64,000 nt of DNA, taken from positions 1-64,000 of the forward strand of contig JAGCOB010000009.1 of NCBI GenBank assembly GCA_017645645.1, in the 5' to 3' direction. Positions 1,572 to 63,846 of this stretch are shown here, one piece after another. The DNA comes from Prevotella sp. (GTDB lineage: Bacteria; Bacteroidota; Bacteroidia; Bacteroidales; Bacteroidaceae). Positions within the stretch are counted from its first letter, which is position 1; each line of letters opens with the position of its first letter. The notes below the pieces were generated by a model. It was not told the origin of the DNA. It did not search any database and saw only the letters and a list, made by a program, of their open reading frames with translations. Position numbers and translations under genes: made by a program.

Positions 1572-1607
1572 ACTATAGTGACTATAGGGCCTATAGTTCC
1601 TATAGGA
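1572..1607. repeat. Nine-base tandem array, unit ACTATAGGN
   Basis: Four units lie end to end: ACTATAGTG, ACTATAGGG, CCTATAGTT, CCTATAGGA. The same unit recurs at 5392-5418 and, in frame inside a gene, at 22438-22482. Confidence 0.8.
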
Positions 1608-1617
1608 ATAATAAACG

Positions 1618-1749
1618 GGAACAGATGGAACAGATGGAACAGATAGTTTATAAAACCTTACGCGTGGACGGACGGACGGGCACGCACCTGCCCGTCCGCC
1701 CGCACGTAAAAAGTCTAAAAAGTACCGTTCCATCTGTTCCATCTGTTCC
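1618..1749. repeat. Nested 132-base inverted repeat
   Basis: The outer arms, 1618-1640 and 1727-1749, are perfect 23-base inverted complements built from the nine-base unit GGAACAGAT. An inner GC-rich hairpin pairs GGACGGGCA (1674-1682) with TGCCCGTCC (1689-1697) around a six-base loop. The inner part is far richer in GC than its surroundings. It could be a structured RNA, a cruciform or a terminator-like barrier. No T-tract follows it. Confidence 0.75.
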
Positions 1750-1874
1750 TTTTTCAGAAAAACGACTACCCTATCCTTACTGGAAAACGTCATAAAAAGA
1801 GGAAGCGTATGAGTACAATCAAGGGAATGAAGTGTCTTATTAATATAAATATTAAACGCGTTTAAAAACTAATT

Positions 1875-3611: not shown

Positions 3612-4441
3612 ATACCAAAGAACTGACAATACTCGCGGAGAAAAACCGCAAACGACTCGTAGAGGTCGTCTACCGTGCCAAGGCAGGACATATCGGCGGC
3701 GACCTGTCATGTCTGAATGTGATGACGGCACTCTATTTCCATGTGATGCAAGGTCTGGACCCTCAAGCCCCCAAGGCTCCCAATCGCGACCGTTTCGTAC
3801 TGAGTAAGGGACACTGTGTGGAAGCACTCTATGTGACCCTGGAGGCAAAGGGATTCCTGAAATCAGAGGTCCTCGACACCTTAGGACAGTATGGCTCCAT
3901 CCTCAGCGGACACCCCACCATCGAGGTACCTGGCATTGAGGTCAACAGCGGAGCCTTAGGACACGGTCTCAGCATCGGAGTCGGTATGGCTATCGCTGCC
4001 AAGATGGACCAGAAGACATGGAAGACCTACGTCCTCATGGGCGATGGTGAACAGGGCGAAGGCTCTATCTACGAGGCCGCCATGGCAGGTAACAAGTATC
4101 AGTTGGACAACCTCGTCGCCATCCTGGACCGTAACCATCTGCAGATCAGTGGTGACACGGAGGATGTGATGCCCATCGACTCTATCAAGGAACGCTGGAG
4201 TGCCTTCGGCTGGGATGTGATAGAGATGAACGGTGACTCGATGGAGGATATCATCAAGACCTTTGATGCCATCGACTACCAGAACAGGAAGCCCCATCTG
4301 ATCATCTCCAATACCACCAAGGGCAAGGGCGTGAGTTTCATGGAAGGCATCGCCAAATGGCACCACGGCGTATTGAACGAGCAGCAGTGCCTCGATGCCG
4401 TCAAGGAGATCGAAGAGAGGATTGAGAAATTAGAAGCGTAA
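3608..4441 (+). CDS. Transketolase, N-terminal (TPP-binding) subunit
   Basis: This 277-residue protein carries the thiamine-diphosphate half of transketolase. 'GHIGGDLSC' lies near residue 27, 'GHGLSIGVGMA' near 119, and the GDG...N magnesium/TPP motif (GDGEQGEGS to DRNHLQ) at about 144-176. The missing half is the next gene, so the active enzyme is a two-subunit transketolase that moves a two-carbon ketol unit. Split transketolases in catabolic clusters often serve a dedicated ketose phosphate (apulose-4-phosphate transketolase AptAB is one described example) rather than the pentose pathway. Coupling to a pectate lyase supports a pectin-derived substrate, but which one cannot be read from the sequence. 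Confidence 0.9.
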   Translation: MNTKELTILAEKNRKRLVEVVYRAKAGHIGGDLSCLNVMTALYFHVMQGLDPQAPKAPNRDRFVLSKGHCVEALYVTLEAKGFLKSEVLDTLGQYGSILSGHPTIEVPGIEVNSGALGHGLSIGVGMAIAAKMDQKTWKTYVLMGDGEQGEGSIYEAAMAGNKYQLDNLVAILDRNHLQISGDTEDVMPIDSIKERWSAFGWDVIEMNGDSMEDIIKTFDAIDYQNRKPHLIISNTTKGKGVSFMEGIAKWHHGVLNEQQCLDAVKEIEERIEKLEA

Positions 4442-4466
4442 TACCGGTATGCCGGAATGCCGAATA
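4442..4466. repeat. Eight-base array, unit (A)TRCCGGA
   Basis: About three units of the GGAATACC/CCGGTATG family fill the spacer between the transketolase genes. The upstream ATG at 4457 belongs to this array, which is one reason to reject it as the start of the next gene. Confidence 0.7.
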
Positions 4467-6619: not shown

Positions 6620-8116
6620 TTAATGTTTAGAAATCAATTGGTTAACAGCATCACGCCAACCTTTGTATAGTTGTGCGTTGAGATTTGAGCATTGAGCGTT
6701 CGGACGGTAGATGTCTGTCACTTTACGCAGTCCGATGACCTCATCGAACGACTTCCAAAGTCCACGGGCAAAACCGTTCATGATGACGGCACCGAGGGCG
6801 GAAGCATCATCAACCTCCGTGCAGACGACAGGTGTTTCCAACATGTCTGCCTGGAACTGCATAAGGAACTTGTTCTTCGTCGGACCACCATCGGCACATA
6901 TCTCACTGAGCCTGCCTCCCGTGGCACGTGCCATCACATCCACCAGGTCCTTGATCTGATATGCGATACTCTCTAGGGCAGCACGGAGAAAATGTGCCTT
7001 CGTCGTGGCAAAGGTGAGTCCAAAGACAGCACCCTTTACCCCACTCTGCCACCATGGGGCTCCCAGTCCTGAGAAAGCGGGGACGATATACACGCCTCCA
7101 TTGTCCTCTACACTGGTAGCTAACGCCTCCATCTCCGAGGGATGACCGACTAGCTGCAACTGGTCGGCAATCCATTTCAGGGTGGCACCGGTACTATAGA
7201 TATTACCCTCAAAACCGTAATATACCTTACCGAAGGCTGAGAATCCCACACTGGTCACCAGTCCCTCGGGGGCTGCCTGCGGCTCCTCACCGATATTCAC
7301 CATCACGCTGGAACCTGTTCCGTATGTCACCTTACCCGAGCCTTTGGTGAAACACATCTGTCCAACAAGGGCACCATGACTGTCACCCAACACGCCGGCA
7401 ATAGGAATCGGCTGGGGGAAGATGCCTTCTACCGTCGTCTCTCCATAGACGGCATCACAAGGAAGGACATCCGCCATCATACTACGAGGAATCCCGAACA
7501 GTTTCAACAGGTCGTCATCCCAGTCCATCGTGTGGATATTAAAGAGCATCGTACGAGAAGCATTGGTATGGTCGGTGGCAAAAGACTTACCCCCCGTGAG
7601 TTTCCAGATGAGCCATGTCTCAATGGTTCCCATCAGCAACTCCCCGCGGTTGGCAGCATCCTTTGCTCCTTCAATATTGTCCAACAACCATTTCACCCCC
7701 GATGCGGAGAAGTTTGGGTCGATCAGCAGACCGCTCTTCGCCGTCACCTGACGGGTATAGCCCAGTTCCTTCAGTTCACGACAGAGTTCCGCACCACGGG
7801 TGTCCTGCCATACGACAGCATTGGCAATCGGTTTTCCTGTCAGTTTGTTCCACACCACTGCCGTCTCACGCTGGTTGGTGATGGCGAGGGAGAAAGCCCC
7901 TTCTTCCATCTTACCTCTTCCCTCTTCCATCAGGTTTCGGATAGCCTCCACCATATTATTATAGATCTCCTCTGCATCATGCTCCACCCATCCTGTCTTC
8001 GGATAATACTGGCGGTGGTCGACATTGGTACGCCCTATCATGTGACACTGCTCGTCAAACAACAATGCTTTAGTAGACGAGGTGCTCTGGTCTATTGCGA
8101 TGATGTATTGTTTCAT
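6620..8116 (-). CDS. FGGY-family carbohydrate kinase, glycerol-kinase-like
   Basis: It is an ATP-dependent kinase of a polyol or ketose, 498 residues, full length for the family. The N-terminal actin-like domain opens with 'IAIDQSTSSTKALLFD'. 'ITNQRETAVVW' and 'NAVVWQDTRGAE' are the sugar-binding segment, 'GDSHGALVGQ' and 'YGTGSSVMVNIG' the hinge, and 'ADGGPTKNKFLMQFQADML' the second FGGY signature. Spacing to the racemase is 6 bases and to the upstream BKACE gene 30 bases, so the four genes form one operon. With a split transketolase nearby, a ketose kinase such as apulose or xylulose kinase is a fair hypothesis. Glycerol-like substrates cannot be excluded. Confidence 0.85.
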   Translation of the reverse strand: MKQYIIAIDQSTSSTKALLFDEQCHMIGRTNVDHRQYYPKTGWVEHDAEEIYNNMVEAIRNLMEEGRGKMEEGAFSLAITNQRETAVVWNKLTGKPIANAVVWQDTRGAELCRELKELGYTRQVTAKSGLLIDPNFSASGVKWLLDNIEGAKDAANRGELLMGTIETWLIWKLTGGKSFATDHTNASRTMLFNIHTMDWDDDLLKLFGIPRSMMADVLPCDAVYGETTVEGIFPQPIPIAGVLGDSHGALVGQMCFTKGSGKVTYGTGSSVMVNIGEEPQAAPEGLVTSVGFSAFGKVYYGFEGNIYSTGATLKWIADQLQLVGHPSEMEALATSVEDNGGVYIVPAFSGLGAPWWQSGVKGAVFGLTFATTKAHFLRAALESIAYQIKDLVDVMARATGGRLSEICADGGPTKNKFLMQFQADMLETPVVCTEVDDASALGAVIMNGFARGLWKSFDEVIGLRKVTDIYRPNAQCSNLNAQLYKGWRDAVNQLISKH

Positions 8117-8120
8117 TGTT

Positions 8121-8149
8121 TTATTCGGTTTTCGGGATTTCGGGATTTA
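8121..8149. repeat. Eight-base array TTCGGGAT between BKACE and kinase
   Basis: ATTCGGTT, TTCGGGAT and TTCGGGAT lie in tandem in the 30-base gap. The stop codon of the BKACE gene lies at the edge of the array. Confidence 0.6.
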
Positions 8150-14576: not shown

Positions 14577-14774
14577 GTTCTGCACTCGACTTTTCGTAAC
14601 TTTGCCGAAAATTCAGCGAAGTTACACCGTCTTGGCAAAAAAAGAAACACGTTTCTTGGTTTTGCACTCAATTTTTCGTAACTTTGCCATCAGAGATGGC
14701 GAAATTACACCGTCTTGGCAAAAAAAGAAACGAGTTTCTTTGTTTTGTGCTCAACTTTTCTTATCTTTGCCATC
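14577..14774 (+). promoter_or_regulatory. Three tandem copies of an 82-83-base promoter unit
   Basis: Repeat copies start at 14577, 14659 and 14742. Each carries a -7 box at the same place: TAACTTTG (14597), TAACTTTG (14679) and TATCTTTG (14762). Copies two and three have TTG or TTTG 19-20 bases upstream. Immediately before those lie palindromes GAAACACGTTTC (14644-14655) and GAAACGAGTTTC (14727-14738). Copy two also holds GCCATCAGAGATGGC (14686-14700). The last -7 box is 34 bases before the operon's first ATG. The palindromes are candidate operators. Confidence 0.8.
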
Positions 14775-14803
14775 AAATCTACTAAACAAATAACAGTACA
14801 CAA

Positions 14804-16228: not shown

Positions 16229-17114
16229 GAAATACAGGGGTGTGGTCGTTCCGATGGTCACACCCGTCACAAAGGAAGGGGCACTCGATACGGATGCCGT
16301 CGTACGTATCATCGAGTTCTTTGCCCAGGCAGGGGTCTCCCCCCTGTTGATGGGTACCACGGGTGAGGGTAACAGCGTCAGTCAGGCTGACGGACTGTTG
16401 TTTGTGGAGACGGCAGTAAAGGCTGCCCGGCAACGCATCACCATCTATGCCGGACTGACAGGCAACTGTTTCAGTGAACAACTGCGACAGGCAGAGGCAT
16501 ATACCAAGGCAGGGGCTGATGTCATCGTGGCAACCCTGCCCACCTACTATGCCCTGACACCAGAGCAGATGGAGAATTACTACCGTCAACTGGCAGATGC
16601 TATTACCGGTCCGCTGATGCTTTACAATATCCTCGCCACGACACACATGAGTATTCCCGTGGATGTCATCCGCCGACTTGCCGACCACCCGAACATCGTG
16701 GGACTGAAGGACTCGGAACGTGACCTGGAGCGTATGGCACAGTGTATTGAGATAGCCAAAGGCCGTGAGGACTTCTGTTATTTCTGTGGATGGGCGGCAC
16801 AGTCGGCTCACTCCCTGGAACTGGGCGGTGACGGTATCGTTCCCTCTACGGGCAACTACGTCCCAGAGATGTTCCAACAACTCTACGAGGCAGCCATTGC
16901 AGGTGATATGACAACCGCCAACCGTCTCCAGGACGAGACGAACGAGATTGCCAAGATCTACCAGAAAGACCGTACGTTGGGACAGTCGTTGACAGCACTA
17001 AAGGTGATGATGCAGACGAAGGGACTCTGCGAGCCCTGGATGCTCATGCCGCTGACCCGTTTATCTGCCGAGGAAGAAGAGGCAATAGCCGCTAAGGCGA
17101 CATCCCTTTCGTAA
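16215..17114 (+). CDS. DapA/NanA-family lyase (dihydrodipicolinate synthase-like)
   Basis: 299 residues, standard for the class I pyruvate-dependent aldolase family. 'LLMGTTGEGNSV' is the GxxGE pyruvate-binding motif. Tyr137 ('MLYNILA') and the Schiff-base Lys165 ('VGLKDSERDL') are in place. In a catabolic operon such proteins cleave or dehydrate 2-keto-3-deoxy sugar acids rather than make lysine. The start at 16215 (MYMNKKYRG) overlaps the isomerase; a second ATG at 16221 is equally possible. An eight-base repeat array follows the stop. Confidence 0.88.
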   Translation: MYMNKKYRGVVVPMVTPVTKEGALDTDAVVRIIEFFAQAGVSPLLMGTTGEGNSVSQADGLLFVETAVKAARQRITIYAGLTGNCFSEQLRQAEAYTKAGADVIVATLPTYYALTPEQMENYYRQLADAITGPLMLYNILATTHMSIPVDVIRRLADHPNIVGLKDSERDLERMAQCIEIAKGREDFCYFCGWAAQSAHSLELGGDGIVPSTGNYVPEMFQQLYEAAIAGDMTTANRLQDETNEIAKIYQKDRTLGQSLTALKVMMQTKGLCEPWMLMPLTRLSAEEEEAIAAKATSLS

Positions 17115-17172
17115 TACCGGCATACCGTTATACCGGCATACCGTAATTCCGTAATACCGTAATACCGAAATT
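17113..17172. repeat. Eight-base array GGCATACC, seven units
   Basis: GGCATACC, GTTATACC, GGCATACC, GTAATTCC, GTAATACC, GTAATACC and GAAATTCG fill the whole spacer before the symporter gene. It is the same unit family as at 4442, 18736, 20739 and 44142. Confidence 0.85.
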
Positions 17173-17176: not shown

Positions 17177-18736
17177 ATGCACATCATTGATTATATCATC
17201 GTCTTGGTGTCCATCCTTGCCGCCATCGGCACGGGTGTGTATTTCGCCCACAAGCAGAAGGATACCTCCCAGTATTTTGCAGGTGGCGGTAAGATTCCTG
17301 CTTGGGCAGTAGGCATCTCCATATTTGCCACACTGATATCGAGTGTGACATTCCTCGCCTACCCCGGTGCCGCCTATGCCGACAACTGGATATTGCTGGT
17401 GCAGGGGCTGATGGTACCTATCGTCCTCGTGGCACTCATCGGTATCATCGTACCGTTGTTCCGCAAGGTCATCCGTCTCTCCACCTATGAATACTTCGAA
17501 CGACGCTTCGGACTGTTTGCCCGTCTGTACTCGTCGTTTGCCTTCACCTTGGGACATTTCTCCAAGGCAGGTACGGTATTCTTCCTCGTATCAATGGCGT
17601 TGGCGACATTCCTGAATATCGACATCTATGCTATCGTCCTCGTCTTAGGAATCACCATCATCATCCTGACGTTGTTCGGAGGTATGGAGGCAATTGTATG
17701 GATGGACGTGGCACAGGGTTTCCTGCTCATCGGTGGCGGTATCATCTGTATCGCCATCCTGATGTTCGGCATTGAGGGCGGTCCTGCCGAGACATTCCGT
17801 ATAGCCTCGGAATACAACAAGATCAGTTTCGGTCCCTACGACTGGAGCCTCTCGGAACTATGCTTCCTGGTGATGGTACTCAACGGTATCTTCTATGCCC
17901 TGCAAAAATACGGTACCGACCAGACCATCGTACAGCGTTACCTCGCTGCCAAGAACGACAAGGAGGCGAAGAAGGCAGCGTATATCGGTGTGCTGATGAG
18001 TGTTCCCATCTGGGCACTGTTTATGTTTATCGGTACGGCACTCTTCGCCTACTATCATGCACAGGGGGCTCCCCTGTTGCCGGAAGGTATCAAAGCGGAT
18101 GAGGTATTCCCCTATTTCATCGCCCATGAACTGCCCGTCGGTATCCGTGGACTTATCATTGCCGCATTGGCAGCAGCAGCCATCTCGTCCCTGGACAGCG
18201 ACCTAAACTGTCTGTCTGCCATTGCCGTCCAAGACTATTACAAACGGTTCCGCAAAGATGCCACCGACCAGCAACAGCTACGTTTCGGCAAATGGATGGT
18301 CGTTCTGGCAGGCATCGGTGCCATCGGTGTCGCCTGCCTCTACATCTTCTGGGGCGGTGAAGGTATCTTAGGAGCCTTGTTCTCACTCTATGCCATCTTC
18401 TCAGCAGGTATTGTGGGCATCTTCATCCTCGGCCTGTTCAGTCGTCGTGCCAACAAACAGGGACTGTATATCGGTATCGCCGCCGCTGTGGTCTTCACGG
18501 CATACGCCGTACTGACCAGTACGAAGGTGGACATCCATGGCACGGGTATCAAAGAGACATTGCTCGACCTGGGTGACTGGAACTTCTCACACCATAAATA
18601 TATGTTAGGTGTCTACTCTCACCTCATCGTCCTCGTGGTAGGCTATGCCGCCAGTTTCCTCTTCAAGACACCGCTTGCCGACAAGGAACTGACCATCTGG
18701 GGCTATCTGGAGGAGCGAAAGAAAACATCGGAATAA
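17177..18736 (+). CDS. Sodium:solute symporter (SSS family)
   Basis: 519 residues with about 13 hydrophobic helices, starting 'IDYIIVLVSILAAIGTGVYFA'. The 'YFAGGGKIPAWAVGISIFA' stretch in the first loop is typical of the SSS family (PutP/SGLT relatives), as is 'GLIIAALAAAAISSLDSDLN' for helix 8, where the sodium site lies. It should import this operon's substrate, an acidic sugar or its lactone by context, using the sodium gradient that the Nqr complex encoded at 27-33 kb can generate. Helix counts are by eye. Confidence 0.88.
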   Translation: MHIIDYIIVLVSILAAIGTGVYFAHKQKDTSQYFAGGGKIPAWAVGISIFATLISSVTFLAYPGAAYADNWILLVQGLMVPIVLVALIGIIVPLFRKVIRLSTYEYFERRFGLFARLYSSFAFTLGHFSKAGTVFFLVSMALATFLNIDIYAIVLVLGITIIILTLFGGMEAIVWMDVAQGFLLIGGGIICIAILMFGIEGGPAETFRIASEYNKISFGPYDWSLSELCFLVMVLNGIFYALQKYGTDQTIVQRYLAAKNDKEAKKAAYIGVLMSVPIWALFMFIGTALFAYYHAQGAPLLPEGIKADEVFPYFIAHELPVGIRGLIIAALAAAAISSLDSDLNCLSAIAVQDYYKRFRKDATDQQQLRFGKWMVVLAGIGAIGVACLYIFWGGEGILGALFSLYAIFSAGIVGIFILGLFSRRANKQGLYIGIAAAVVFTAYAVLTSTKVDIHGTGIKETLLDLGDWNFSHHKYMLGVYSHLIVLVVGYAASFLFKTPLADKELTIWGYLEERKKTSE

Positions 18737-18806
18737 CGGAATCACGGCATATCGGCATAACGGAATACCGGCATACTGGAATACCGGAATACCGGAATAA
18801 CGAAAA
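18736..18806. repeat. Eight-base array GGAATACC, about nine units
   Basis: The spacer reads GGAATCAC, GGCATATC, GGCATAAC, GGAATACC, GGCATACT, then three GGAATACC-type units and GGAATAAC. It is the longest array of this family in the window. Confidence 0.85.
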
Positions 18807-18810
18807 AAAT

Positions 18811-19557
18811 ATGATAAATCCTTTCAGAATTGACGGACAAAGAGCCGTGGTGACAGGCGGTGGCAGCGGACTGGGACTGGGTATCGCCAAAGTATTTATA
18901 GAGGCGGGTGCCGAGGTGGTTATCATCGGGCGTAACGAAGAGAAACTGCAGAAAGCCCAGCAACAATTAGGCAAACAATGCAGTTACCGCGCCTTTGACG
19001 TGACGCAGACAGACCAGATTCCTGCCTTAGTACAGGAAATCGGGGCTGTGGATATCCTCGTGAATTGTGCCGGTACACACCTCAAGAAATGGGCATTGGA
19101 TGTCAGTGATGCCGAGTTCCTGGATGTGATGAACGTCCATGTGATGAGTGTCTTTACACTCAGTCGTGAGTTTGCCAAAGGGATGGTGGAACGCGGCAAA
19201 GGCAATATCATCATGATCAGTTCCATGGCTGCCCTCATGGGGTTAGAGCAGATTGTAGCCTACACCACGGCAAAGACGGCCATCCTCGGACTACAACGTA
19301 GTTTAGTGGCAGAACTGTCACCCAAAGGGATCCGCATCAACACCATCGCCCCAGGATGGATAGACACGCCCATGTTCCACAAGGCAACTGACAACGACCC
19401 ACAACGCAAGACCAATATCCTGCGCCGCATCCCGATGAAGACCTTCGGTCAACCCGAAGACATTGGCTATGCCGCCCTCTATCTGTCATCACCTGCCGGC
19501 AGTTACGTGAATGGTGTCTTCCTCCCGGTGGATGCCGGAGCTTCTGAGGCATTCTGA
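18811..19557 (+). CDS. SDR-family oxidoreductase, KduD/gluconate dehydrogenase-like
   Basis: 248 residues, a classical short-chain dehydrogenase. The N-terminal dinucleotide motif is TGGGSGLGLGIA. The NAG-type motif is 'NCAGTH'. Catalytic Ser lies near 138 in 'MISSMAAL', with Tyr151 and Lys155 in 'AYTTAKTA'. 'PGWIDTPM' follows as in the KduD/gluconate-5-dehydrogenase group. It probably oxidises or reduces one hydroxyl of the operon's sugar acid with NAD(P). In pectin catabolism KduD acts on a 3-deoxy-diketo-hexuronate, but the accompanying KduI is absent here, so that role is not assumed. Confidence 0.85.
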   Translation: MINPFRIDGQRAVVTGGGSGLGLGIAKVFIEAGAEVVIIGRNEEKLQKAQQQLGKQCSYRAFDVTQTDQIPALVQEIGAVDILVNCAGTHLKKWALDVSDAEFLDVMNVHVMSVFTLSREFAKGMVERGKGNIIMISSMAALMGLEQIVAYTTAKTAILGLQRSLVAELSPKGIRINTIAPGWIDTPMFHKATDNDPQRKTNILRRIPMKTFGQPEDIGYAALYLSSPAGSYVNGVFLPVDAGASEAF

Positions 19558-19592
19558 AGAGTTAAGAAAAAACATTAAGAGTTAAGAGTTAT
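19558..19592. repeat. Seven-base array AAGAGTT
   Basis: AAGAGTT units flank and fill the 35-base spacer (AAGAGTTAAG, then TTAAGAGTTAAGAGTTA) right up to the start of the alcohol dehydrogenase gene. Confidence 0.65.
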
Positions 19593-20738: not shown

Positions 20739-20780
20739 GCGGTATCCCGGCATCCCGGCATTCCGGTATTCCGGTATAAC
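20739..20780. repeat. Eight-base array CCCGGCAT/CCGGTATT
   Basis: About five units (GGTATCCC, GGCATCCC, GGCATTCC, GGTATTCC, GGTATAAC) make up the spacer before the pdxA-like gene. The units are the inverted complement of the GGAATACC family. Confidence 0.8.
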
Positions 20781-20796: not shown

Positions 20797-21837
20797 ATGA
20801 AACCGATATTAGCTATCACCATGGGCGACCCCGCAGGTATCGGACCTGAGATTACGGTACGCGCCCTGAATAGAAAAGAGACTTACGAGAAGTGCCAACC
20901 CATCGTCACCGGTGACGCCGCCATCATGGAACAGGCTGTGAGGTTGCTAGGCTTCAACCTGAAGGTGAATGCCGTACAGAGTGTCAAAGACGCCAAGTTT
21001 GAGTACGGTACTATTGATGTCTACGACCTGCAGTGTGTCGACCTCTCCACCTTCGAGTTCGGTAAGGTACAGCCACAATGCGGCAACGCTGCCTTCCAGT
21101 ATATCAAGAAGGCGATAGACCTTGCCATGGCAGATGAGGTGGACGGTACCGTCACGGCTCCCCTGAACAAAGAGGCATTGAACCTTGCCGGACATCACTA
21201 CGACGGACATACGGAGATCTATGCTACCTTCACCAACACCAAGAAATATGCCATGATGCTCGCCGACGAGAACATCCGTGTCATCCATGTCTCCACCCAT
21301 GTACCTCTTCGGAAGGCTTGTGACTTGGTGAAGAAGGCACGTGTCATCGAGTGTGTGGAACTGATAGACGATGCCTGTCGTCAGTTCGGTATTGAGAAAC
21401 CACATATCGGTGTGGCTGGTCTGAACCCTCACTCCAGTGAGAACGGTATGTTCGGCTATGAGGAGGCACAGGAGATTATCCCTGCCATCGAGGAACTGAA
21501 GACACGCGGCTTCGATGTTGAAGGTCCCGTACCGCCCGACTCTATCTTCGCCAAGGCGAAGTGCGGACAATTCGACGGATGTGTCGCCATGTATCACGAC
21601 CAGGGACATATCCCTTTGAAGGTGTGTGCCTTCAACTGGAACAAGGATACGGGTAAGATGGAGAGTGCCAGCGGTGTCAATATCACCCTCGGTCTGCCTA
21701 TCATCCGCGTGTCGGTAGACCACGGTACTGCCTTCGATGTGGCAGGCAAGGGTATTGCCAACGATAGTGCCATGACTCTCTCCATCGACTATGCCACACG
21801 CATGGCGATATATAGAAGAGAAAAAGCTAATAGCTAA
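20797..21837 (+). CDS. PdxA-like 4-phospho-tetronate dehydrogenase
   Basis: 346 residues of the PdxA family: 'MGDPAGIGPEI' at the N-terminus, 'GHYDGHTEIYA' with a metal histidine, and 'MYHDQGHIPLK' with His267. Next to a DUF1537 kinase, PdxA homologues (PdxA2) act in D-threonate or erythronate catabolism. The kinase makes the 4-phosphate, and PdxA2 oxidises and decarboxylates it to dihydroxyacetone phosphate. I therefore call it a catabolic PdxA2 rather than vitamin B6 synthesis. Its last codons run into a seven-base repeat before the kinase start. Confidence 0.85.
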   Translation: MKPILAITMGDPAGIGPEITVRALNRKETYEKCQPIVTGDAAIMEQAVRLLGFNLKVNAVQSVKDAKFEYGTIDVYDLQCVDLSTFEFGKVQPQCGNAAFQYIKKAIDLAMADEVDGTVTAPLNKEALNLAGHHYDGHTEIYATFTNTKKYAMMLADENIRVIHVSTHVPLRKACDLVKKARVIECVELIDDACRQFGIEKPHIGVAGLNPHSSENGMFGYEEAQEIIPAIEELKTRGFDVEGPVPPDSIFAKAKCGQFDGCVAMYHDQGHIPLKVCAFNWNKDTGKMESASGVNITLGLPIIRVSVDHGTAFDVAGKGIANDSAMTLSIDYATRMAIYRREKANS

Positions 21838-29578: not shown

Positions 29579-29580
29579 AA

Positions 29581-44141: not shown

Positions 44142-44172
44142 GACGGAATACCGAAATACCGGAATAACAAAA
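44142..44172. repeat. Eight-base array GGAATACC before ygiQ
   Basis: GGAATACC, GAAATACC and GGAATAAC fill the gap between two genes. A TTG inside the array extends the downstream frame but is not a likely start. Confidence 0.75.
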
Positions 44173-50925: not shown

Positions 50926-51076
50926 AGTTGGTTTGAACTTTTAAATGTTGACTTATCTATTCGACTGCGAAGATACAAAGAATATTTGATTTGACAAAAT
51001 ATTCTAAACAATAATATTTCCATCATACATCAGCCTTCATACATCAGCCATCACTTGCAGTTCTTTTTCTGCGATG

Positions 51077-51167: not shown

Positions 51168-51371
51168 AAAATGAGAAAATATGTACTTAACTCTATTAGA
51201 ATGGCAAATCCTCGAACAGTTCTTCTTCTGCAAAATCGAGGGAGAGGGAATTGGATTCCTCGTAGTGTTTGATGGTATATTTGACAAATACCAATCCCTT
51301 GGCATAATTATTGAAAAACCAATGCTCGCTTAATAAAAAATCCGTTTTTTTTTAAAGGGAGTGATAGTCTC

Positions 51372-51440
51372 ACTAGTCCTACTAGTCATACTAGTCCTAC
51401 TAGTCATACTAGTCCTACTAGTCATACTAGTCCTACTAGT
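51372..51440. repeat. Nine-base array ACTAGTCCT/ACTAGTCAT
   Basis: Seven full units and ACTAGT alternate ACTAGTCCT and ACTAGTCAT, giving an 18-base superperiod. The array ends next to an orphan promoter box. Confidence 0.9.
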
Positions 51441-51754: not shown

Positions 51755-54700
51755 TTACTTAATCACAACTTTTTTGCCATTTACGATGTAGAGGCCCTTC
51801 TGTGTGGGCTGCTTGTCCAGCTTGCGACCATCCAGTGTGTGCCAGCTATTGTCGTTATCTCCGTTAACTTCTTTAACTACGTTAACTTCTCTAACTCCCG
51901 TTGTACCGCCGTCGGCAGCAATCAGGCGAACCTTCATCTGGGCGGGCATCTCGGTGGCAGACGTTCTGCGTGGAGCCGGTGAACTACAGTTAGCTGCATC
52001 GAGGTAAGCACGGAATGGCAGGATATAGCTGTTGGAGCCGCCCTTCACACGGAAGAAAGTTCCCGGGCTGATGGTCGTAGCATTCGTAGCCGCAAAGCCG
52101 TAGACGGTCTGCGGATCGGTCAGCCAGTCGATGCGGTCGTAGGTACCGCGGAACGTCCAACCCTCCTTGATGGCATTGCCAGCTTCGGTAGTCGCTGGAG
52201 CTGTTCCATGGAACAATACGGGCCCCGTAGCTGCTGGTTTAAAGAGGTACGGCGTGTTGGCCGATAGCGTGCTGGCTTTATTGCCTGCAACGGGAGGATC
52301 AGCTGTAGGATCAGCTTCCTGCATGATGACTTCCCAGTCATTCGGATCTGTCTTATCCACCCCTACGAACGTGTAGAACTTGCCTGCTGCAGCGGCCTGT
52401 GTAGCGTCGATCGCGAACGGCAGACACACGGTGCTGGCAACGTTCTCCTTGAATTCACGACGGAACGCCACCTTGTCTCCTGCGTTCAACGTTGGCATGG
52501 AGGTCTGTGTCTCGCTCAGGATGATAGCCGGCACGGCGCCATCGTTGTCGGTGACGTCGTGACGGTCGTTGCTGCCGTTGATGTGGTATCCAGAGCCGAT
52601 GCCACTGGTGGCGTCACCCACGGTGCAACCGCTGTAGTAGTTGTGTTCGAGGGTGGCTTCTCCGTTGTGACCAACGATAGCGCCTGAGGCTTCATAATTG
52701 GTGTTATATTTGAGAGCAGGAATCGCAGTGCCGATGGCCAGGTTGTTGCGCAGGGTGCCCATATTTGCACAACCCACGATGGCGCCGAAGTAATAGCATC
52801 CGGTCTTGCTGGTAAGCGTGACGGCACTGGAACAGCCTGAGATGGTAGCGTTATAAGTAATTCCCGCAATGCCGCCGAAACCGCTGGTTTTCGTCATAAC
52901 GGCATGCAGGGCAACGGTAGCGGTGGCGTGGCAATTCTCAACCTTGCCGCCATATTCAATTTGCCCCACAACGCCGCCGACCTCCTCGTAGCCAGAGATG
53001 CAAGCATCGGCTACGGTGACGTTCTTCACCGTGCCGTTATTGCCTACATAGCCGAAGAGACCCTGATAACTTTCGGCATCTGTTTTTCCCCACTTATAGA
53101 TGCGGATGCCGCTCACGGTGTGGCCCTTGCCGTCGAAGGTACCGTTGAAAGGGTGAATACTGCTGTTAAAGACGCCGCCAATGGCGGTATAGTTGTTCTC
53201 CTCGCTATTAGCGTTCCAGTCGGTAGTGTGCGTGTAGGTGATGTCGTTAGCCAGCACGAAGTATTTGCCGCTGTAACTCTCACCGTCGTTCACGTTTGTG
53301 GCCAGCAGGTCGAGCTGGCTGGGATACTCGATGATATAGGGATCATCCGCGGAGTCTCCGCTGCCCGCCCAAGGAATCGTCGTCCACACGGCGCTGACGG
53401 TCACGTCGCAAGGCATCAGGAAGGTGTTTTCCGTCTGCATATCGACAGGATCACCCCAACGGTCTATCACGCTATAGCCTATGAACGGAGTGGTACAGCC
53501 CGCAGGCGCCTCGCCTGTGCCGCTCAGGGTCACCTCCTCATCCTGTTCTACCAGCGGGCCGTTGTAGGTAGTGGTAAAGGTGATGCCCGTGCCGCAGGTG
53601 ACGGTGTAGCCGGACTGCGGATTGTAATTACGCCAAACATCGTCGCCAGAATAGTCACCTTCTGCAGCAGCGACGATAACGAGATTCGGGCGACTATCAA
53701 ACGCATTACCGCCTAATGTCGTTATTGGCGTCGTGCGCAGCACATAGACCTTTGACAGATTCTCGCAACTCCCGAAAGCACATTCGCCGATGCTCGTCAC
53801 GCTGGCAGGGATGATGATTGTGGTCAGCGTTGAGTTGCCATAGAAGGCATCGTCATAAATCTGTGTGGTGCCTTCGTCAAGTGTAATGTTTGAGGCGTCG
53901 CCCTTCATCCTATAGGCCACATGGCCCAGATAGAACAGGGCGTTGTTGGGAATGTTGTCGTTGAGGTTGGCTTTCCACGGCGTATTGTAGAAGGCGCTAG
54001 TGCCGATGCTCGTCAGTCCGTCGCCGCCACTGACCGTCGCCAGATTGGTACAATTCTGGAAGACACCACCATAAAGGGTCGTCACGCTGGCGGGGATGTT
54101 GATGGTCGTCAAGGCAGCGCATCCATAGAAGGCATCGCCATAAATAGCCGTCAGCTGCGGTGTGCCGGCGAAGGTAACCGTCGCCAGACTGGTGCAACCA
54201 TTGAAGGCATTGGTTCCGATGATTGTCACGCCGTCCCCGATGACGAGGGTGTTAATGTCCGGCTTAAAGCCTGCCCAAGGCTGGTTGTATGAGCTGTAAT
54301 TCTTCATAGCCCCTGTGCCGCCGATGGTCAGCTTATCGTAACGGCCGTCGTCGTCGGTGTCCGTCACCTCCCAAGTAACCTCTGATTCGTGGCCGGATGT
54401 GCCGCACGTGCCGCTAACCTGAATAAATGTCGCATTGACGGTGACGTTGCTGGCGGGCATGGTGAAAGAATAGACGCCGCTGGCCTCGGTGACGGTGACG
54501 GTCTCGGCGGGATTCGTACCGTCCTTCGTCACGCTATAGCCTGCGAAGGCGTAGCCGTCGGGGATAGTACCCGTGCCGCTCAGCGTCACCGTCTCGCCCT
54601 GTGCCACAATCGGCGCATAGCTCGTGGCGGTGATGCCCTCGTTGCAGGTGATGTTGTAGCCGCGCTGCAGTTTTGAGTTGTATGAATACCAGTGACCTGA

Positions 54701-55870: not shown

Positions 55871-57889
55871 CTAATTAGACAATTCGGTTATACGACACTC
55901 CCCAAATACTTTTAATAAAATAGCCAATCTTTCTTTCTTCATTTCATTTATGTTTGATGCATCAGAGTATTTGGTAAAATCACTTTCTGAAATACCTGTA
56001 TATTTGGAAATGGATTGACGTAAGAAACTATCATCAACTTGTGCCAATGTTTTATCCTTCTTCTGAATATTATCTGCTTTGGGTAATAACTGTAAATTGA
56101 AAAGTGCATCTTTATACTTTGCTGGCACCATAGAATTTTTCTCTAATTTTGCCTGTGGAATAATGTGGTCCACCTCAGACGTTTCTTCTAATGGACTTTC
56201 TGGATTTTTCTTTTGCAACGCATACTGATAACATAATAACGGCGTCAAATGTTTTATATCAAGCGGTTGACCATTATATGTTCCTTCACATGCTTCCTCT
56301 ATTAATGCTTTCCATGACTTTTCATCCATAGGAGCAACGCGTTCATGCCAATTCTTTATATGATTTGCCATCTTTGAATCACCTGAACCTTTCCATGATC
56401 CAATACAATACTCAAAAATGAGTCTGTCAAATAGCAATTTTGCGTCTCTAATAAATGTATTGTATTCTGCTGATGAAACACGTGGACTTCCTTTCTCATG
56501 CCAATCGTATATCAATATGGTAATATATTCAAGAGTAGGAGCAGCCCCCAATAATTTATATAAAGACTTATTCCAACTTCGCAAATATTTGAAGAATTCT
56601 GTTTTTAGTAATATCTCACATATTGTATTGATGTCATCCACCAATTCATCTATGCTTTGTCCCCACTTGATTTCTTTATTACGTTCAAGTTCATTCACTA
56701 CAATTGCAGACATTCCCTTATTGAAATAAGAACTTATTAACTTGAAACCAAGTGTAATTTGTGTCATATCAATTTCTTGAGAAGATTTCTTTTCTAGGTA
56801 ATCTTCAAATATCAAGTGTTTATCTTTAATTCTAGATATTAAAGTTGCACCATAATCCCAACGAACTACACAATTATCTGTAGGAGTTTCAACCTCCAAA
56901 CGAGTATATAGGTCGTTCACTAGATCAAGCATCTTTCCATCACCAATTACAACCTTTTCATTCCAGAAAGGTTTGGCGGACAATAATTCTTCTGCTTTTA
57001 ATTGGGTTCCTCCACTATTAATACGAGAGAATATATTCTGTGCATCAAGTGGAGTTACATTCTTTAAAAGAATAACACCTATTCTTGCATCAGATATTAT
57101 TTGTTCTGATTTCGCAATGACTTTAACAATATGTTCTATATCATCCCAGGATTTATCAACCTCTTTCTTTAAATCTTGCTCCTTGTCTTCTTTGATTGCT
57201 CCTTTATCATCCATATATTGGATGAAATTATCTTTGTTAGGATTGCCAACCTTATTTTTGTATTCAAGAAGGAACTGCCTTAGTTCTTCTGGAATAATCT
57301 TAAAACCTTCTCGTTTGGGTGCATAGGGAGGTCTTTCTATATATTTATTAATTTGATTAAAAATGCGCACCCACTTACCTTCATTGTTCTTTTTTTGATG
57401 TACCATCAATATAATATCCAATAAAGTCTTTAATCCTTCACGTTGACGTAATTTATTGATGTCCTCATCATCATTTATCTCAGGTATTGGTTCAGCTACT
57501 ATATCTTCTGCTATATCTTCTCTTGTTTCTTCATCATCTTCTTCTTGCTGCAAATATGCATCTATCTTCTCCCAAAATAACTGTTTTACCTCAACATCAT
57601 CTTGGTTGTTCTTAAATTTGATATATTTTCTCGCCCAATCATATACTAAATCTGGATTTGCTCGAAGGTCTTTTAATGCAGACCTTCTTTGACGTCCATC
57701 AAGTAACCATGAAGTATGTCCTTCATCATTAATAATAACTACCCCCACAGGATATTCTTGAAAGATACTAATTGCCAGTTCAAAATTTTGTTTTGCATTC
57801 CATGTAGATTTACGTTGGAAGCGCGGCAGTTTAATTTTACTATCTGTAACAAATTCTGAAATTGATCGAGTTTCAATATTATAGCTCAT
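55871..57889 (-). CDS. DUF262-HNH (GmrSD-like) nuclease
   Basis: 672 residues. The N-terminal DUF262/ParB-like domain has 'IKLPRFQRKSTW' and the nucleotide-site motif DGRQRRSAL at residues 64-72. 'IFSRINSGGTQLKAEELLSA' mid-protein is another DUF262 hallmark. The C-terminus carries an HNH motif beginning 'EVDHIIPQA' at residue 572 with asparagines in 'FNLQLLPKADNIQKK'. Fusions of these two domains include GmrSD, which cleaves glucosylated hydroxymethyl-cytosine DNA, and SspE, which defends cells with phosphorothioated DNA. I infer phage defence against modified DNA. The gene is visibly richer in A and T than its neighbours and next to non-coding repeats, which suggests horizontal gain. No partner methylase or ssp/dnd genes are in the window. 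Confidence 0.85.
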   Translation of the reverse strand: MSYNIETRSISEFVTDSKIKLPRFQRKSTWNAKQNFELAISIFQEYPVGVVIINDEGHTSWLLDGRQRRSALKDLRANPDLVYDWARKYIKFKNNQDDVEVKQLFWEKIDAYLQQEEDDEETREDIAEDIVAEPIPEINDDEDINKLRQREGLKTLLDIILMVHQKKNNEGKWVRIFNQINKYIERPPYAPKREGFKIIPEELRQFLLEYKNKVGNPNKDNFIQYMDDKGAIKEDKEQDLKKEVDKSWDDIEHIVKVIAKSEQIISDARIGVILLKNVTPLDAQNIFSRINSGGTQLKAEELLSAKPFWNEKVVIGDGKMLDLVNDLYTRLEVETPTDNCVVRWDYGATLISRIKDKHLIFEDYLEKKSSQEIDMTQITLGFKLISSYFNKGMSAIVVNELERNKEIKWGQSIDELVDDINTICEILLKTEFFKYLRSWNKSLYKLLGAAPTLEYITILIYDWHEKGSPRVSSAEYNTFIRDAKLLFDRLIFEYCIGSWKGSGDSKMANHIKNWHERVAPMDEKSWKALIEEACEGTYNGQPLDIKHLTPLLCYQYALQKKNPESPLEETSEVDHIIPQAKLEKNSMVPAKYKDALFNLQLLPKADNIQKKDKTLAQVDDSFLRQSISKYTGISESDFTKYSDASNINEMKKERLAILLKVFGECRITELSN

Positions 57890-57924: not shown

Positions 57925-58339
57925 CAAAAAGTTTGCGAGATTATACATTCTAAAAGTGGAAAAACTATTATACTTTATGAATTTTACGATATTGAGGGAT
58001 CTAAACTATCCAAATTCGATCTAAACTGATCTAAAAACTTTTGCACTCTCTTCTTGATCTCCTTTACTTTTGCGAAATAATCCTGCTTTTCTTACAAAAA
58101 AAGATAAAGGATAATTAGAGGACCTTAATGTGGCAAAGTGGCAATGGGACAAATGGGCGGACTCACATGCCGACTGACCTTGACTCATGTACCGACTGAC
58201 TATTCAACAAAAACAAGGGTTAAGAGAGAATGATTCAACTTCTGCCAGGGATAAGAATTAAGGTACCTAATAAATATTCAACCTATGGCAGGGTTTAGTT
58301 AAAAACCATTCAACTTTTTCTAGGGTAGTATAGATAAAC

Positions 58340-58371
58340 GGTCACACGGTCACAACTGTGACCATGTGACC
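58340..58371. repeat. 32-base palindrome, copy 1
   Basis: The arms GGTCACACGGTCACA and TGTGACCATGTGACC flank a two-base centre, with one mismatch. Read in reverse complement it equals copy 2 (58461-58492) except for one central base. The GGTCACA...TGTGACC halves resemble a dimeric regulator site. Confidence 0.8.
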
Positions 58372-58460
58372 AATTCGTTTCGTTGATAGCAACTGCTTAT
58401 TTATAAATATCTGTATTTCAAGATATTATATCATCATCCCACCACACCTTCCTCCTCTGC

Positions 58461-58492
58461 GGTCACATGGTCACAGCTGTGACCGTGTGACC
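58461..58492. repeat. 32-base palindrome, copy 2, inverted
   Basis: The arms GGTCACATGGTCACA and TGTGACCGTGTGACC flank the centre GC. It is 121 bases from copy 1 and in inverted orientation relative to it. Confidence 0.8.
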
Positions 58493-58508
58493 GTTCAAAG
58501 TTTGTGAA

Positions 58509-58569
58509 GTTTGGAGGCTCCATTCACACCGTTTGGAGGCTCCATTCACACCGTTTGGAGGCTCCAAAC
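58509..58569. repeat. 22-base direct repeat, 2.7 copies
   Basis: Copies start at 58509, 58531 and 58553 with no spacer. Each begins GTTTGGAGGCTCCA. The last partial copy ends as the perfect palindrome GTTTGGAGGCTCCAAAC (58553-58569). Confidence 0.85.
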
Positions 58570-58573
58570 ACTT

Positions 58574-58660
58574 AGTTAGGCGGCACCTATCGATGCGTTA
58601 GGAGCCGGGTATCCATGCGTTAGGCGGCACCTATCGGGGAGACACATGCCGCCTATCGGA
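58574..58660. repeat. REP-like element TAGGCGGCACCTATCG, second locus
   Basis: Copies of TTAGGCGGCACCTATCG start at about 58576 and 58620, with a degenerate copy between and an inverted ATGCCGCCTATCGG at about 58646-58659. It matches the array at 1465-1570. Confidence 0.8.
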
Positions 58661-61224: not shown

Positions 61225-61252
61225 AAGCTTTTAATATTGGTTAAACGTTTTA

Positions 61253-63778
61253 TTATTCTTGATTCTCGGAGCTCTCGGAGTTCTCTGAGTTCTCGGATTC
61301 TTCGGAGTATTCGACATCCTCGTCCTGACTGCTCATCACCTTGCAGACGCTGGCAATGACATCATTCTTCTTCGTGAGGTTGATGAGGCGGACACCATGG
61401 GTAGCACGTCCCATAACACGGACATCAGCCACCTTCAGACGAATGAGGATACCACTCTTATTGATAATCATAAGGTCATTCTCATCCGTTACCACCTTAA
61501 TGGCCACCAGACGACCGGTCTTCTCCGTGATAGCAAGGGTCTTCACACCCTTTGTACCACGCGCTGTCTTACGATAGTCCTCCACCTCAGAACGCTTACC
61601 ATAGCCGTTCTCTGAGACGACCATGATAGTCTCCTGTTGCGGATCGTTCACGCAGACCATACCGATGACCTCATCGTCACCACCATCAATACGCATACCG
61701 ATAACACCAGTTGACACACGTCCCATCGTACGTACCTGATCCTCATTGAAGCGGACGGCACGACCGTTACGGTTAGCAAGCAGCAGTTCATTCTTGCCGT
61801 TGGTCAGACGGACACCTACCACCTTGTCGCCCTCGTTGATATTGATGGCTATCACACCATTGTTACGCGGACGGCTGTATGCCTCCAGACAGGTCTTCTT
61901 GATGATACCGTTCTTGGTAGCGAAGACTACATAGTGAGAGTTAATAAACTCGGTATCATTGAAGTTCTTGATGCGCAACACGGCATTGATAGCGTCATCA
62001 GGATCGATGTTCAGCATGTTCTGGATAGCACGACCCTTCGAGTTCTTGTCACCCTCTGGTATCTCATAGCACTTCTGCCAGTAACAGCGACCCTTCTGGG
62101 TGAAGAAGAGCAGTGTGTTATGCATCGTGGCAGGATAGATATACTCCGTGAAGTCGTTGTCACGATGACGTGCAGCCTTGGCACCAACGCCTCCCCTGCC
62201 CTGCTCATGGAACTCATCGAGCTTAGTGCGTTTGATATAGCCCATGTGCGAGATGGTGATGACCACAGGATCATCGGGATAGAAGTCCTCGGCATTGAAT
62301 TCATGGTCGAAGGGGATAATCTCCGTACGACGCTCATCACCGTATTTCTCCTTCACCTCCTGAAGTTCATCCTTCATCACCTGCTTGCAACGCTCGGGAT
62401 TATCGAGAATCTCCTGCAAGTCGGCAATGAGTTTCTGCAGGTCGTCATACTCCTGATGAAGCTGGTCGACACGCAGACCTGTCAGTTGTGCGAGACGCAT
62501 ATCGACGATAGCCTTCGACTGGAGTTCATCAAGGTTGAAGCGCTCCTCCAAGTTACGCTGGGCATCACTAGGCGTCTTACTATTCCTGATAATGTGTACG
62601 ACCTCGTCAATGTTATTAACGGCAATGATCAAACCCTCCAGGATATGGGCACGCTCCTGAGCCTTGCGCAAATCATATTTCGTACGACGGATGGTCACGT
62701 CATGACGATGCTCCACGAAATACTTCACACATTCCTTGAGGTTCAGCAGACGGGGACGTCCCTTTACCAAAGCGATGTTATTCACTGAGAATGAGCTCTG
62801 TAGAGCCGTCATCTTAAACAACTTATTCAGCAGCACGTTGGCATTGCAGTCACGTTTGCAGTCGACCACGATACGCATACCCTGACGACCAGACTCATCG
62901 TTGACATTAGCCACGCCTTCAATCTTATGCTCGTTGGCAAGGTCGGCGATATATTTCACCAAGTCTGCCTTGTTGACACCATAGGGAATCTCCGTCACCA
63001 CAATCTTGTCATGCGTATCCCCACTCTCAATCTCTGCCTTGGCACGCATCACGATACGACCACGACCGGTCTCATAGGCATCCTTCACACCCTGCAAGCC
63101 ATAGATATAGGCTCCCGTGGGGAAGTCTGGACCCGGGATATACTGCATCAATCCGTCTGTATCGATATCGGGATTGTCAATATAGGCACAGCAGCCGTCA
63201 ATGACCTCACTGAGATTGTGCGTCGGCATATTCGTCGCCATACCCACGGCAATACCGTTACCGCCATTGACCAGCAGGTTGGGAATCTTGGTAGGCATGA
63301 CTGTCGGCTCTACGAGCGAGTCGTCGAAGTTGTTCATCATATCGACAGTCTCCTTCTCCAGGTCGTCCATGATATGCTCACCCATCTTTGAGAGGCGGCA
63401 CTCCGTATAACGCATGGCGGCAGGAGAGTCACCGTCTATCGATCCGAAGTTACCCTGTCCGTCCACCAAGGTGTAACGCAGGTTCCAGTCCTGTGCCATA
63501 CGCACCAGTGCTCCATAGACGGAGCCGTCACCATGAGGGTGGTACTTACCAAGCACCTCACCGACGACGCGGGCACATTTCTTATACGGCTGGGTAGATA
63601 CATTGTTAATATTCAACATACCATAGAGGATGCGGCGATGTACGGGCTTGAAGCCATCACGCACATCAGGCAGCGCACGAGCCACGATGACCGACATAGA
63701 GTAGTCGATGTAGGAGGATTTCATCTCCTCCTCGATGTTGATTTTGATAATTCTGTCGTTGTCAAATGTCTGATCCAT
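61253..63778 (-). CDS. gyrA: DNA gyrase subunit A
   Basis: 841 residues. It cuts and rejoins DNA in the GyrA2B2 complex that introduces negative supercoils. Catalytic Tyr124 lies in '[10 protein letters not shown]', and '[11 protein letters not shown]' and the beta-pinwheel repeats of the C-terminal domain ('[13 protein letters not shown]' and similar) are intact. The GyrA box '[10 protein letters not shown]' marks it as gyrase rather than topoisomerase IV. In the quinolone region the sequence is GDGSVYG, with Gly85 and Gly89 where E. coli has Ser83 and Asp87. The acidic C-terminal tail ([18 protein letters not shown]) is encoded by a nine-base repeat. Confidence 0.96.
61261..61314. repeat. 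In-frame nine-base array at the gyrA 3' end
   Basis: Six units of the type AGTTCTCGG (plus strand) encode SEN/SES-type triplets in the last residues of GyrA. The array starts six bases from the stop codon. Confidence 0.85.
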
Positions 63779-63784
63779 TATTAT

Positions 63785-63846
63785 ATTTTACTATTTAACT
63801 ATTTTACAATTTGACTATTTACGATTTGACTATTTACGATTTTGCA
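63785..63846. repeat. ATTTGACT array in the gyrA leader
   Basis: Eight units, ATTTTACT, ATTTAACT, ATTTTACA, ATTTGACT, ATTTACG, ATTTGACT, ATTTACG and ATTTTGCA, begin seven bases before the start codon. The same family occurs at the nqrE/F and nqrC/D junctions. Confidence 0.85.

Follow-up and report, generated by a model that had tools for sequence, protein, structure and literature searches.

Families of 7-, 8- and 9-nucleotide tandem arrays recur at unrelated loci across a Prevotella genome

We analysed a 64-kb stretch of Prevotella sp. DNA (the window; positions 1-64000 of contig C8 in genome G000, a 2.085 Mb assembly that is 64% complete and that we take to come from a rumen Prevotella) for short tandem arrays of 7-, 8- and 9-nucleotide (nt) units, and found that such arrays are real, genome-wide, widespread in the genus and odd. 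They fall into families that recur at unrelated loci, and the unit at a given site often differs between related species. Our preferred reading, to which we give a probability of roughly 0.4, is that the arrays are blocks inserted by an ongoing process, with trans-templated template switching favoured over local slippage or a selected element.

Array families across the genome

Our sample of G000 comprised the window and 40 further stretches, 816,222 bases in all (39% of the genome), and was compared with 383 kb of G035 and 395 kb of G022; stretches of G022, G001, G157 and G330 were picked around known matches, which overstates array density there. Arrays were detected by Tandem Repeats Finder (TRF) and direct sequence reading in the window, and by our own period scan genome-wide. 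The G000 sample holds 161 arrays of period 7-9 (89, 39 and 33 respectively, after multiples of a period had been folded onto the base period), with a median length of 34 nt; 93 measure 27-38 nt, 14 are shorter and 54 longer. In its count of gaps the scan gave 72 intergenic arrays of these periods (33, 28 and 11 at periods 7, 8 and 9), as against five intergenic arrays at periods 4-6 and 10-13 together and none at periods 7-9 in dinucleotide-shuffled intergenic sequence, a count that upholds the arrays as a genome-wide feature and gives them the longer-than-chance extent of long simple sequence repeats of 5-11 nt. Coding arrays number 44, 4 and 18 at the same three periods. Intergenic arrays are also found in 200 kb of the complete genus genome G045 (10, 4 and 2 at periods 7, 8 and 9), and 200 kb of another complete genome, G024 (GC 38%), contains none. 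Intergenic arrays of period 22 are frequent in all three, numbering 21 in the G000 sample and 11 and 4 in the 200 kb of G045 and G024 respectively; as G024 possesses these without those of period 7-9, they look like a separate family.

Identical units turn up at distant places more often than composition would give, as a reading of the window made from its letters alone (the sequence-only reading) had claimed: same-unit array pairs in G000 number 118 at period 7, 8 at period 8 and 9 at period 9, against means of 9, 1.6 and 0.05 after letter shuffling within units. The families, which we named ourselves by clustering units at one threshold, are at period 7 AGCYAAN (23 arrays), AACTNTN (20), AANATTG (17), TCTTNCN (8), CATCAGN (8) and GGAGNNA (6), at period 8 CGNNATNC (17) and a cluster of ATTTNACN- and AATTGAAG-like units (15), and at period 9 CTAGANNNN (9), CTCNGAGNN (8), CTATAGTNC (7), GGAACAGAT (3) and CTTTAACTN (3).

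Each family has a fixed period, a conserved core and variable positions that are mostly identical across independent arrays (e.g. AGCYAAN, AATTGAAR, CGNNATNC, CTATAGTNC and CTCNGAGNN). Across 11 families, neighbouring copies agree in 81-100% of cases at core positions, except for four at 68-75% (two in AGCCAAN, two in CATCAGN), and in 26-82% at variable positions, except for one at 91% (GGAGNNA); the CTATAG positions agree in 92-100%, the remaining three positions of that unit in 53, 26 and 67%. When the mismatch profile of each array was rotated randomly 2000 times, in the 23 families with at least four arrays in three genomes, no rotation was as extreme as the observed phase in 13 families, and fewer than 5% were in 19. 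A period-7 unit within a gene meets all three codon positions, so codon constraint is not the cause of the shared variable positions. Outside arrays the cores are not enriched, 16 of 17 observed/Markov ratios lying at 0.70-1.12 (CTCAGAG, 1.49). DNA uptake sequences are single motif copies enriched genome-wide, and the same ratios rule out an uptake-sequence or other single-site motif.

In the window, TRF and direct reading recover the short arrays at the places named by the sequence-only reading, with others; they are listed here, "TRF" marking detection by that program.

1572-1605: CTATAGNNN array, period 9, in a divergent gap (TRF)
1618-1644, plus strand: three copies of GGAACAGAT, period 9 (TRF)
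1727-1749, minus strand: GTTCCATCT, the GGAACAGAT unit inverted and the inverted partner of 1618-1644 (TRF)
4440-4462: GGNATNCC-type array, period 8, between the genes for two transketolase halves (TRF; below the score threshold of our scan)
7899-7931, minus strand: TCTTNCN array, period 7, within an FGGY kinase gene
8107-8148: period-8 array at a co-directional junction (TRF)
17110-17171: CGNNATNC array (GGNATNCC type), period 8, at the junction of a DHDPS-family gene and an SSF transporter gene (TRF)
18729-18808: CGNNATNC array (GGNATNCC type), period 8, at the SSF/SDR junction (TRF)
19557-19591, plus strand: AAGAGTT array, period 7, at the junction of SDR and iron-containing alcohol dehydrogenase (Fe-ADH) genes (TRF only)
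20740-20777: CGNNATNC array (GGNATNCC type), period 8, at the Fe-ADH/PdxA junction
21822-21850, plus strand: AGCYAAN array, period 7, at the junction of PdxA and the SBD_N gene
22432-22480: CTATAGTNC array (CTATAGNNN type), period 9, within the SBD_N/NBD_C gene, between both domains
28254-28289, minus strand: ATTTNACN array (ATTTNAC(N) type), period 8, at the nqrE-nqrF junction
29549-29583, minus strand: ATTTNACN-type array (ATTTNAC(N) type) at the nqrC-nqrD junction (TRF only)
44147-44166: GGNATNCC-type array, period 8, upstream of a YgiQ-like radical SAM gene (TRF)
44957-45011, plus strand: CATCAGN array, period 7, its left half inverted, in frame within the radical SAM gene
45992-46036, plus strand: CATCAGA array (CATCAGN type), period 7, at the 3' end of the YgiQ-like radical SAM gene (TRF)
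51020-51053: CATCAGN-type array, intergenic (TRF)
51365-51440: ACTAGTNNN array, period 9, with CCT and CAT alternating, intergenic (TRF)
51852-51896, minus strand: CTTTAACTN-type array, period 9, within a BspA-type leucine-rich repeat gene (TRF)
61264-61313, minus strand: CTCNGAGNN array, period 9, in the last codons of gyrA
63784-63842, minus strand: ATTTNACN array (ATTTNAC(N) type), period 7/8, upstream of gyrA (TRF)

A 9-base family had been placed at 1572, 5392 and 22438, of which the first and last stand (1572-1605 and 22432-22480), whilst near 5392 there are only about two CTATAGNNN units. Most arrays had also been said to occupy the gap from a stop codon to the following start within an operon, which was not confirmed: the 19 window arrays above our threshold are distributed over co-directional junctions (seven, counting 61264 in gyrA), genes (five), divergent gaps (three), convergent gaps (three) and the window edge (one), and two that the sequence-only reading had named, at 22432 and 44957, are inside genes. 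The junction arrays at 4440, 19557 and 29549, seen by TRF only, come in addition to these 19.

Some arrays change strand midway (e.g. TTGGC/TTAGC units followed by GCCAA), as at window 44957-45011, L057 5065-5112 and L144 7950-7999, which is the trace that strand-switching synthesis would leave. Others form inverted pairs about 24-108 nt apart (L285 4004-4092 and 4826-4914, L293 14275-14427, L298 13555-13708, L300 10614-10752 and L098 6576-6693); the two arms in L098 have a 31-nt exact reverse complement in common, variant order included, which suggests inverted copying or a hairpin.

Array replacement and insertion at orthologous sites

An array is frequently present at the same site in a sister species, and among 17 distinct same-site pairs the unit is a different one in eight (six differ by at least three letters on the same strand, two in period; three more differ by two letters and six by at most one). 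For example, the Fe-ADH/PdxA spacer, readable in 6 of 12 loci, is 3 nt long in L212 and 24 nt without an array in L211, whereas arrays occupy it in the window (CGNNATNC), in L213 (CGNNATNT) and in L214 (TCTAGANNN-like). The array at 44957-45011 forms a 16-residue insertion in the radical SAM protein that eight of the ten other orthologues in the alignment (of 11 among 30 loci) lack, and G035 carries a CTCTCAA array at this site. Further replacements in G035 are a GTGAGAG array at the FGGY kinase site (window 7899-7931), a GAAATGAG array at the PdxA/SBD_N junction (21822-21850) and period-7 arrays between the SBD_N and NBD_C domains (22432-22480), whilst the counterpart of the array upstream of gyrA (63784-63842) is a 6-nt site. 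Across three genomes, counting both directions of each pair, another species also had an array at 11 of 31 coding array sites as against 5 of 562 random coding positions, which were unmatched for insertion tolerance, and at 21 of 48 non-coding sites as against 21 of 111 controls; some of the excess at coding sites must come from insertions being tolerated at the same places in both species.

Array-free orthologues allow the inserted DNA to be measured. At 29 such sites (target without array, net insert of at least 15 nt, one target per site) the unit match at the empty site is 4.45 nt, compared with 4.17 nt for permuted units, and 16 of 200 permutations are as high. In 131 orthologous gene pairs we found 25 internal insertions of 15-90 nt, seven of which contain a period 7-9 array (shuffle expectation 0.05); these are six distinct arrays in five genes, one array appearing in two comparisons, and six of the seven lengths are multiples of 3. 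Whole-unit length changes, as slipping simple sequence repeats would give, were rare, the net insert being a multiple of the period at 2 of the 29 sites and a multiple of 7 in one of the five coding insertions called as period 7, with lengths that are approximate because boundaries were drawn between species at about 70-90% nucleotide identity. The simplest reading of empty sites that lack the unit, and of inserts that are rarely period multiples, is the arrival of a whole block in one event, on a template that is not local, in agreement with the earlier argument that slippage alone does not explain why one unit recurs.

Placement and translation

By gene calls from a simple hexamer finder, in which starts are approximate, the 161 arrays divide into 64 in genes, 62 at co-directional junctions, 18 in divergent and 9 in convergent gaps, and 8 at stretch edges. 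The sample has 445 same-strand junctions; taken with the seven of 25 coding insertions, the 62 arrays there make arrays look like one of the chief origins of new spacers and loops in this abundant rumen genus. Density in G000 is 0.088 per kb in coding sequence, and in gaps it is 1.36 (co-directional), 1.05 (divergent) and 1.08 (convergent) per kb, the corresponding gap values being 1.19, 0.68 and 0.74 in G035 and 2.18, 0.60 and 1.39 in G022 (stretches around matches). The enrichment at operon junctions expected earlier is thus partial, as all kinds of gap are alike in G000 and a co-directional excess of about 1.6-fold or more is found in G035 and G022. Selection for spacing or translation coupling, which the sequence-only reading had offered as a cause, fares poorly against the similar gap densities of G000 and its 64 arrays in genes.

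The arrays seem to be filtered by translation after arrival. In the three genomes together, 169 arrays at co-directional junctions gather around the stop codon of the upstream gene and frequently overlap it, 139 leader arrays contain 57 ATG triplets in the sense orientation vs. 137 in antisense, and stop triplets 547 vs. 305, whilst 133 coding arrays, 87 of them of period 7, encode 25% hydrophobic residues as read and would encode 40% in the other orientation. Such a filter on leaders fits the under-use of AUG near starts described for Bacteroidetes, which are without Shine-Dalgarno sequences according to the available text of PMC6847099. Leader arrays are not less structured than their shuffles (mean z -0.93), which rules out that arrays keep leader RNA unstructured.

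Families in different lineages

Leading families differ between lineages. In G000 they are AGCYAAN, AACTNTN and CGNNATNC, in G035 CTCTNAA (27 of 39 period-7 arrays) and AATTGAAR (16 of 21 period-8 arrays), and in G022, sampled around matches, AATTGAAR (29 arrays), TAANTGA (27), TCNTTCC (19) and AATGCTN (15). Families are not exclusive to a species, several being found elsewhere in lower number: the imperfect AATTGAAR 31-mer AATTGAAGAATTGAAAAATTGAAGAATTGAA (at most one mismatch) occurs in 17 of 120 genus genomes, with at most 16 matches in each, a few of which overlap within one array, against three matches in total for its reversed control, and three copies of CTATAGTNC occur in 6 of the 120, the window's genome among them. 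In a survey of one 20-kb stretch from each of 20 genus genomes (two chosen near matches, and others near earlier loci), 15 had at least one array, and the five array-free stretches include all three genomes with GC of at most 42%. Beyond the genus, three copies of CTATAGNNN were found in 3 of 294 other genomes of the order and, among 394 further genomes of the phylum, three of CTCNGAG in one (neither reversed pattern had a match), and a single array of period 7-9 was seen in 10 kb from each of six further families of the order. In G330, of another family, two stretches chosen for its matches hold CTATAG, CTCNGAG and AATTGTTA arrays. An unusually long array of about 30 copies of AGCATTR lies at L291 248-462, possibly a master array of the AATGCTN family of G022.

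Origin of the arrays

We infer single-step insertion and template switching from these patterns. An insertion process would be ongoing in a large part of the genus Prevotella, in which a block of some 30-35 nt, with four to five head-to-tail copies of a 7-, 8- or 9-nt unit, would arrive in one apparent step, its unit set in trans, most simply by repeated switching of a nascent strand onto same-family arrays at other places in the cell. Pairing through cores of about 6 nt would propagate the core and let the remaining one to three positions drift, blocks would persist where translation tolerates them (at stop codons, in leaders and other gaps, and in protein loops or linkers), lineages would differ in the families currently active, and neighbouring species may exchange alleles. 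The pattern offers a handle on how unrelated loci in one bacterial genome gain the same short repeat word and on why the word at one site differs between related species.

Several points weigh against it, besides the approximate insert lengths. Four of the 23 families show no phase effect, and the alignment of arrays by unit similarity may have inflated that effect a little. Strings of variable positions are common to arrays above shuffles at the 5% level in only one of 12 tests (TCNTTCC, 16/500), with two more at 7-8% (34/500 and 41/500), in tests of low power on 39% of the genome, so no donor array can be named; copying of intact arrays within the genome is not visible at this power. Templated seeding, as suggested by the sequence-only reading, therefore stands as far as a non-local template fits better than slippage, and not as direct copying of whole arrays. 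As cores are not enriched outside arrays, the template pool would have to be the arrays themselves, and annealing on cores alone leaves unexplained why mismatches are tolerated at variable and not at core positions. Finally, identical or near-identical arrays lie between nqrE and nqrF genes with 34-57% changed four-fold sites, with exact identity stopping 0-32 nt beyond the array in six of seven pairs, which selection on the array would explain.

The arrays might be selected binding sites or leaders, for an RNA- or DNA-binding factor or as translation-decoupling or tuning spacers, with a factor specificity that shifts by lineage, an explanation that is on balance unlikely. A conserved core with tolerated positions, recurrence at orthologous sites, the co-directional excess in G035 and G022 and an orientation bias at junctions (e.g. 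AATTGAAN, 26 sense vs. 6 antisense in G022 and G035 together) all speak for it, as does the nqr identity just described. However, exact runs including the array are 41-61 nt in six of the nqr pairs and 121 nt in the seventh, L069/L084, which suggests that exchange between species occurs, and the short runs would fit either selection on the array or very short exchange; they speak against recombination as the sole cause of identity. Among 75 named loci the nqrE-nqrF spacer is at most 10 nt in 45, holds an array in 14, is longer with AGGAG or GGAGG in 12 and is of another kind in four, the 45 short spacers counting against selected elements. Avoidance of ATG with retention of stops accounts for the orientation bias, and the divergent and convergent densities of G000, the arrays in genes, the lack of single-core enrichment and the unreduced leader structure also count against selected elements. 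As a separate observation, AGGAGG-like sequences stand 5' of nqrF in several of L117-L135, though Bacteroidetes are said to be without Shine-Dalgarno use.

Local replication slippage would have each array grown in place from a chance copy of the unit, with the polymerase favouring 7-9 nt, an origin put forward for long simple sequence repeats, and easily slipping units recurring. The sharp period range favours it, together with the polymerase-contact idea for heptamers reported in the introduction of MacGregor 2015 (PMC4679880, available text), and in most of the 12 tests copies within one array resemble each other at the variable position more than copies from different arrays do, as local duplication predicts. 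Against this, empty sites hold the unit no more than permuted controls do, net lengths are rarely period multiples, a 7-nt step is a frameshift in genes and still 87 of 133 coding arrays are of period 7, and slippage predicts neither a shared core with shared variable positions at unrelated loci nor a change of family between species at one site; we regard it as unlikely.

Two further explanations bring in a dedicated enzyme. A telomerase-like reverse transcriptase (RT) such as DRT10 could make 7-9-nt tandem cDNA from a short RNA, which is captured at breaks, with templates that change; there is precedent in the available text of a preprint, in which the cDNA made by DRT10 consists of tandem repeats (9 nt long in one system) whose motif sequence and length vary between systems (PMC12632851), and such an enzyme would explain why the unit acts in trans, why one genome has several families and why the arrays arrive as blocks. 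However, the RVT_1 profile, which may miss divergent RTs, has no match (E 0.001) in array-rich G022 (81% complete), G035 (94%), G007 (94%), G055 (99%) and G040 (80%), so the RT gene of DRT10-type products was not found there, though a mobile RT may have been lost; a first look gave no RT candidate in G022 and G007, G010 has six RVT_1 matches and no array in its 20-kb stretch, and a fixed RNA template would not lead one to expect variable positions at several separate places in a unit. Two RT loci, L334 and L335, were judged unsuitable for leading to a DRT model on account of their strong RVT_1 scores. To our knowledge DRT cDNA has not been linked with arrays in chromosomes, and we hold such scars to be very unlikely. 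The broader idea of a trans-acting repeat synthesiser, either a telomerase-like RT (e.g. a DRT10 relative) or a template-switching complex, writing blocks of about 30 nt into breaks at gene ends and in genes is decidedly unlikely in our judgement; were it true, with a changeable nucleic-acid template, the arrays would be a record of successive templates, i.e. of the 7-9-nt word current in a lineage.

Dispersal by a transposase would recall repetitive extragenic palindromic (REP) elements, which have a comparable length, a position at gene ends, inverted pairs and families that differ between species, with a REP-associated tyrosine transposase (RAYT; Y1_Tnp) in the genome. The array length, gene-end position, lineage-specific make-up and inverted pairs (e.g. 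L285 4004/4060, L298 13555/13679 and window 1618/1727) are reminiscent of these; against it, Y1_Tnp has no match in array-rich G035 (94% complete) or in G000 (64% complete) and is present in G010, though also in array-rich G040 and G055, and no fixed tetranucleotide or common end sequence was noticed, in work without a dedicated search for one. We consider this extremely unlikely. Y1_Tnp matches occur in 17 of 25 genomes, array-rich and array-poor alike, and neither RAYT nor RT presence has a clear association with array abundance as judged from single 20-kb stretches.

Relation to known repeats

Tandem heptanucleotides at many loci are familiar from the short tandemly repeated repetitive (STRR) sequences of filamentous cyanobacteria. 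Of the 161 Prevotella arrays, 89 are heptamers in recurring families and 72 have period 8 or 9; these two periods and core-plus-variable positions are not known to be features of STRR sequences. Direct repeats of the heptamer TAACTGA are described from Beggiatoaceae, Cyanobacteria and five Bacteroidetes (MacGregor 2015, PMC4679880), the latter, in section 10, not including Prevotella. In the available text of that study they too are short tandem heptamers of few copies, intergenic, frequently just 5' of start codons, strain-specific and in some cases within reading frames, but they have a single unit, and heptamers resembling it are rare in the main genome studied there, whereas the Prevotella genome has about a dozen families, three periods, many arrays in genes and shared variable positions. 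TAACTGA is absent from the G000 clusters and from the 40 commonest period-7 units listed, and the arrays do not favour its place just upstream of starts, 64 of 161 being in genes and the 169 co-directional arrays clustering at the upstream stop. GGGAATC and GGGGA(C/T)T repeats of Xanthomonas and Nostoc (PMC4692102, available text) are likewise heptamers at many gaps, and sister species of Xanthomonas have the same gaps occupied with varying length and sequence; these repeats form one G-rich family with quadruplex potential, whereas in Prevotella the majority of families are not G-rich, and orthologous sites can differ in the unit family itself. DRT10 cDNA, as far as described in PMC12632851, is similar in its tandem units of about 9 nt, with a sequence set by a variable template, and dissimilar in that several array-rich genomes lack an RVT_1 match.

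Our literature search, covering open-licence papers, found no description of such arrays in Prevotella among the papers listed. Heptamer arrays as such are already known elsewhere, and families with a core and variable positions and the replacement of units at one site look new. The arrays are related to known heptamer repeats (as far as PMC4679880 and PMC4692102 describe these) and differ from them in family number, shared variable positions, in-frame block insertion and unit replacement.

Other repeats in the window

TRF found 22-nt arrays at 1463-1548 and 58509-58636, two of which have GGCGGCACCTATCG in common, and an 83-nt unit in 2.4 copies at 14577-14777, upstream of an isomerase-led catabolic operon. 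Each copy of the latter contains a TAnnTTTG-like sequence, which we take to be a promoter element, and the repeat is possibly a tandem promoter. Lastly, GGTCAC/GTGACC arrays of period 8 lie in inverted arrangement at 58338-58494, within a 1.2-kb gap flanked by a GmrSD-like gene (55871-57889) and a gene at 59086.

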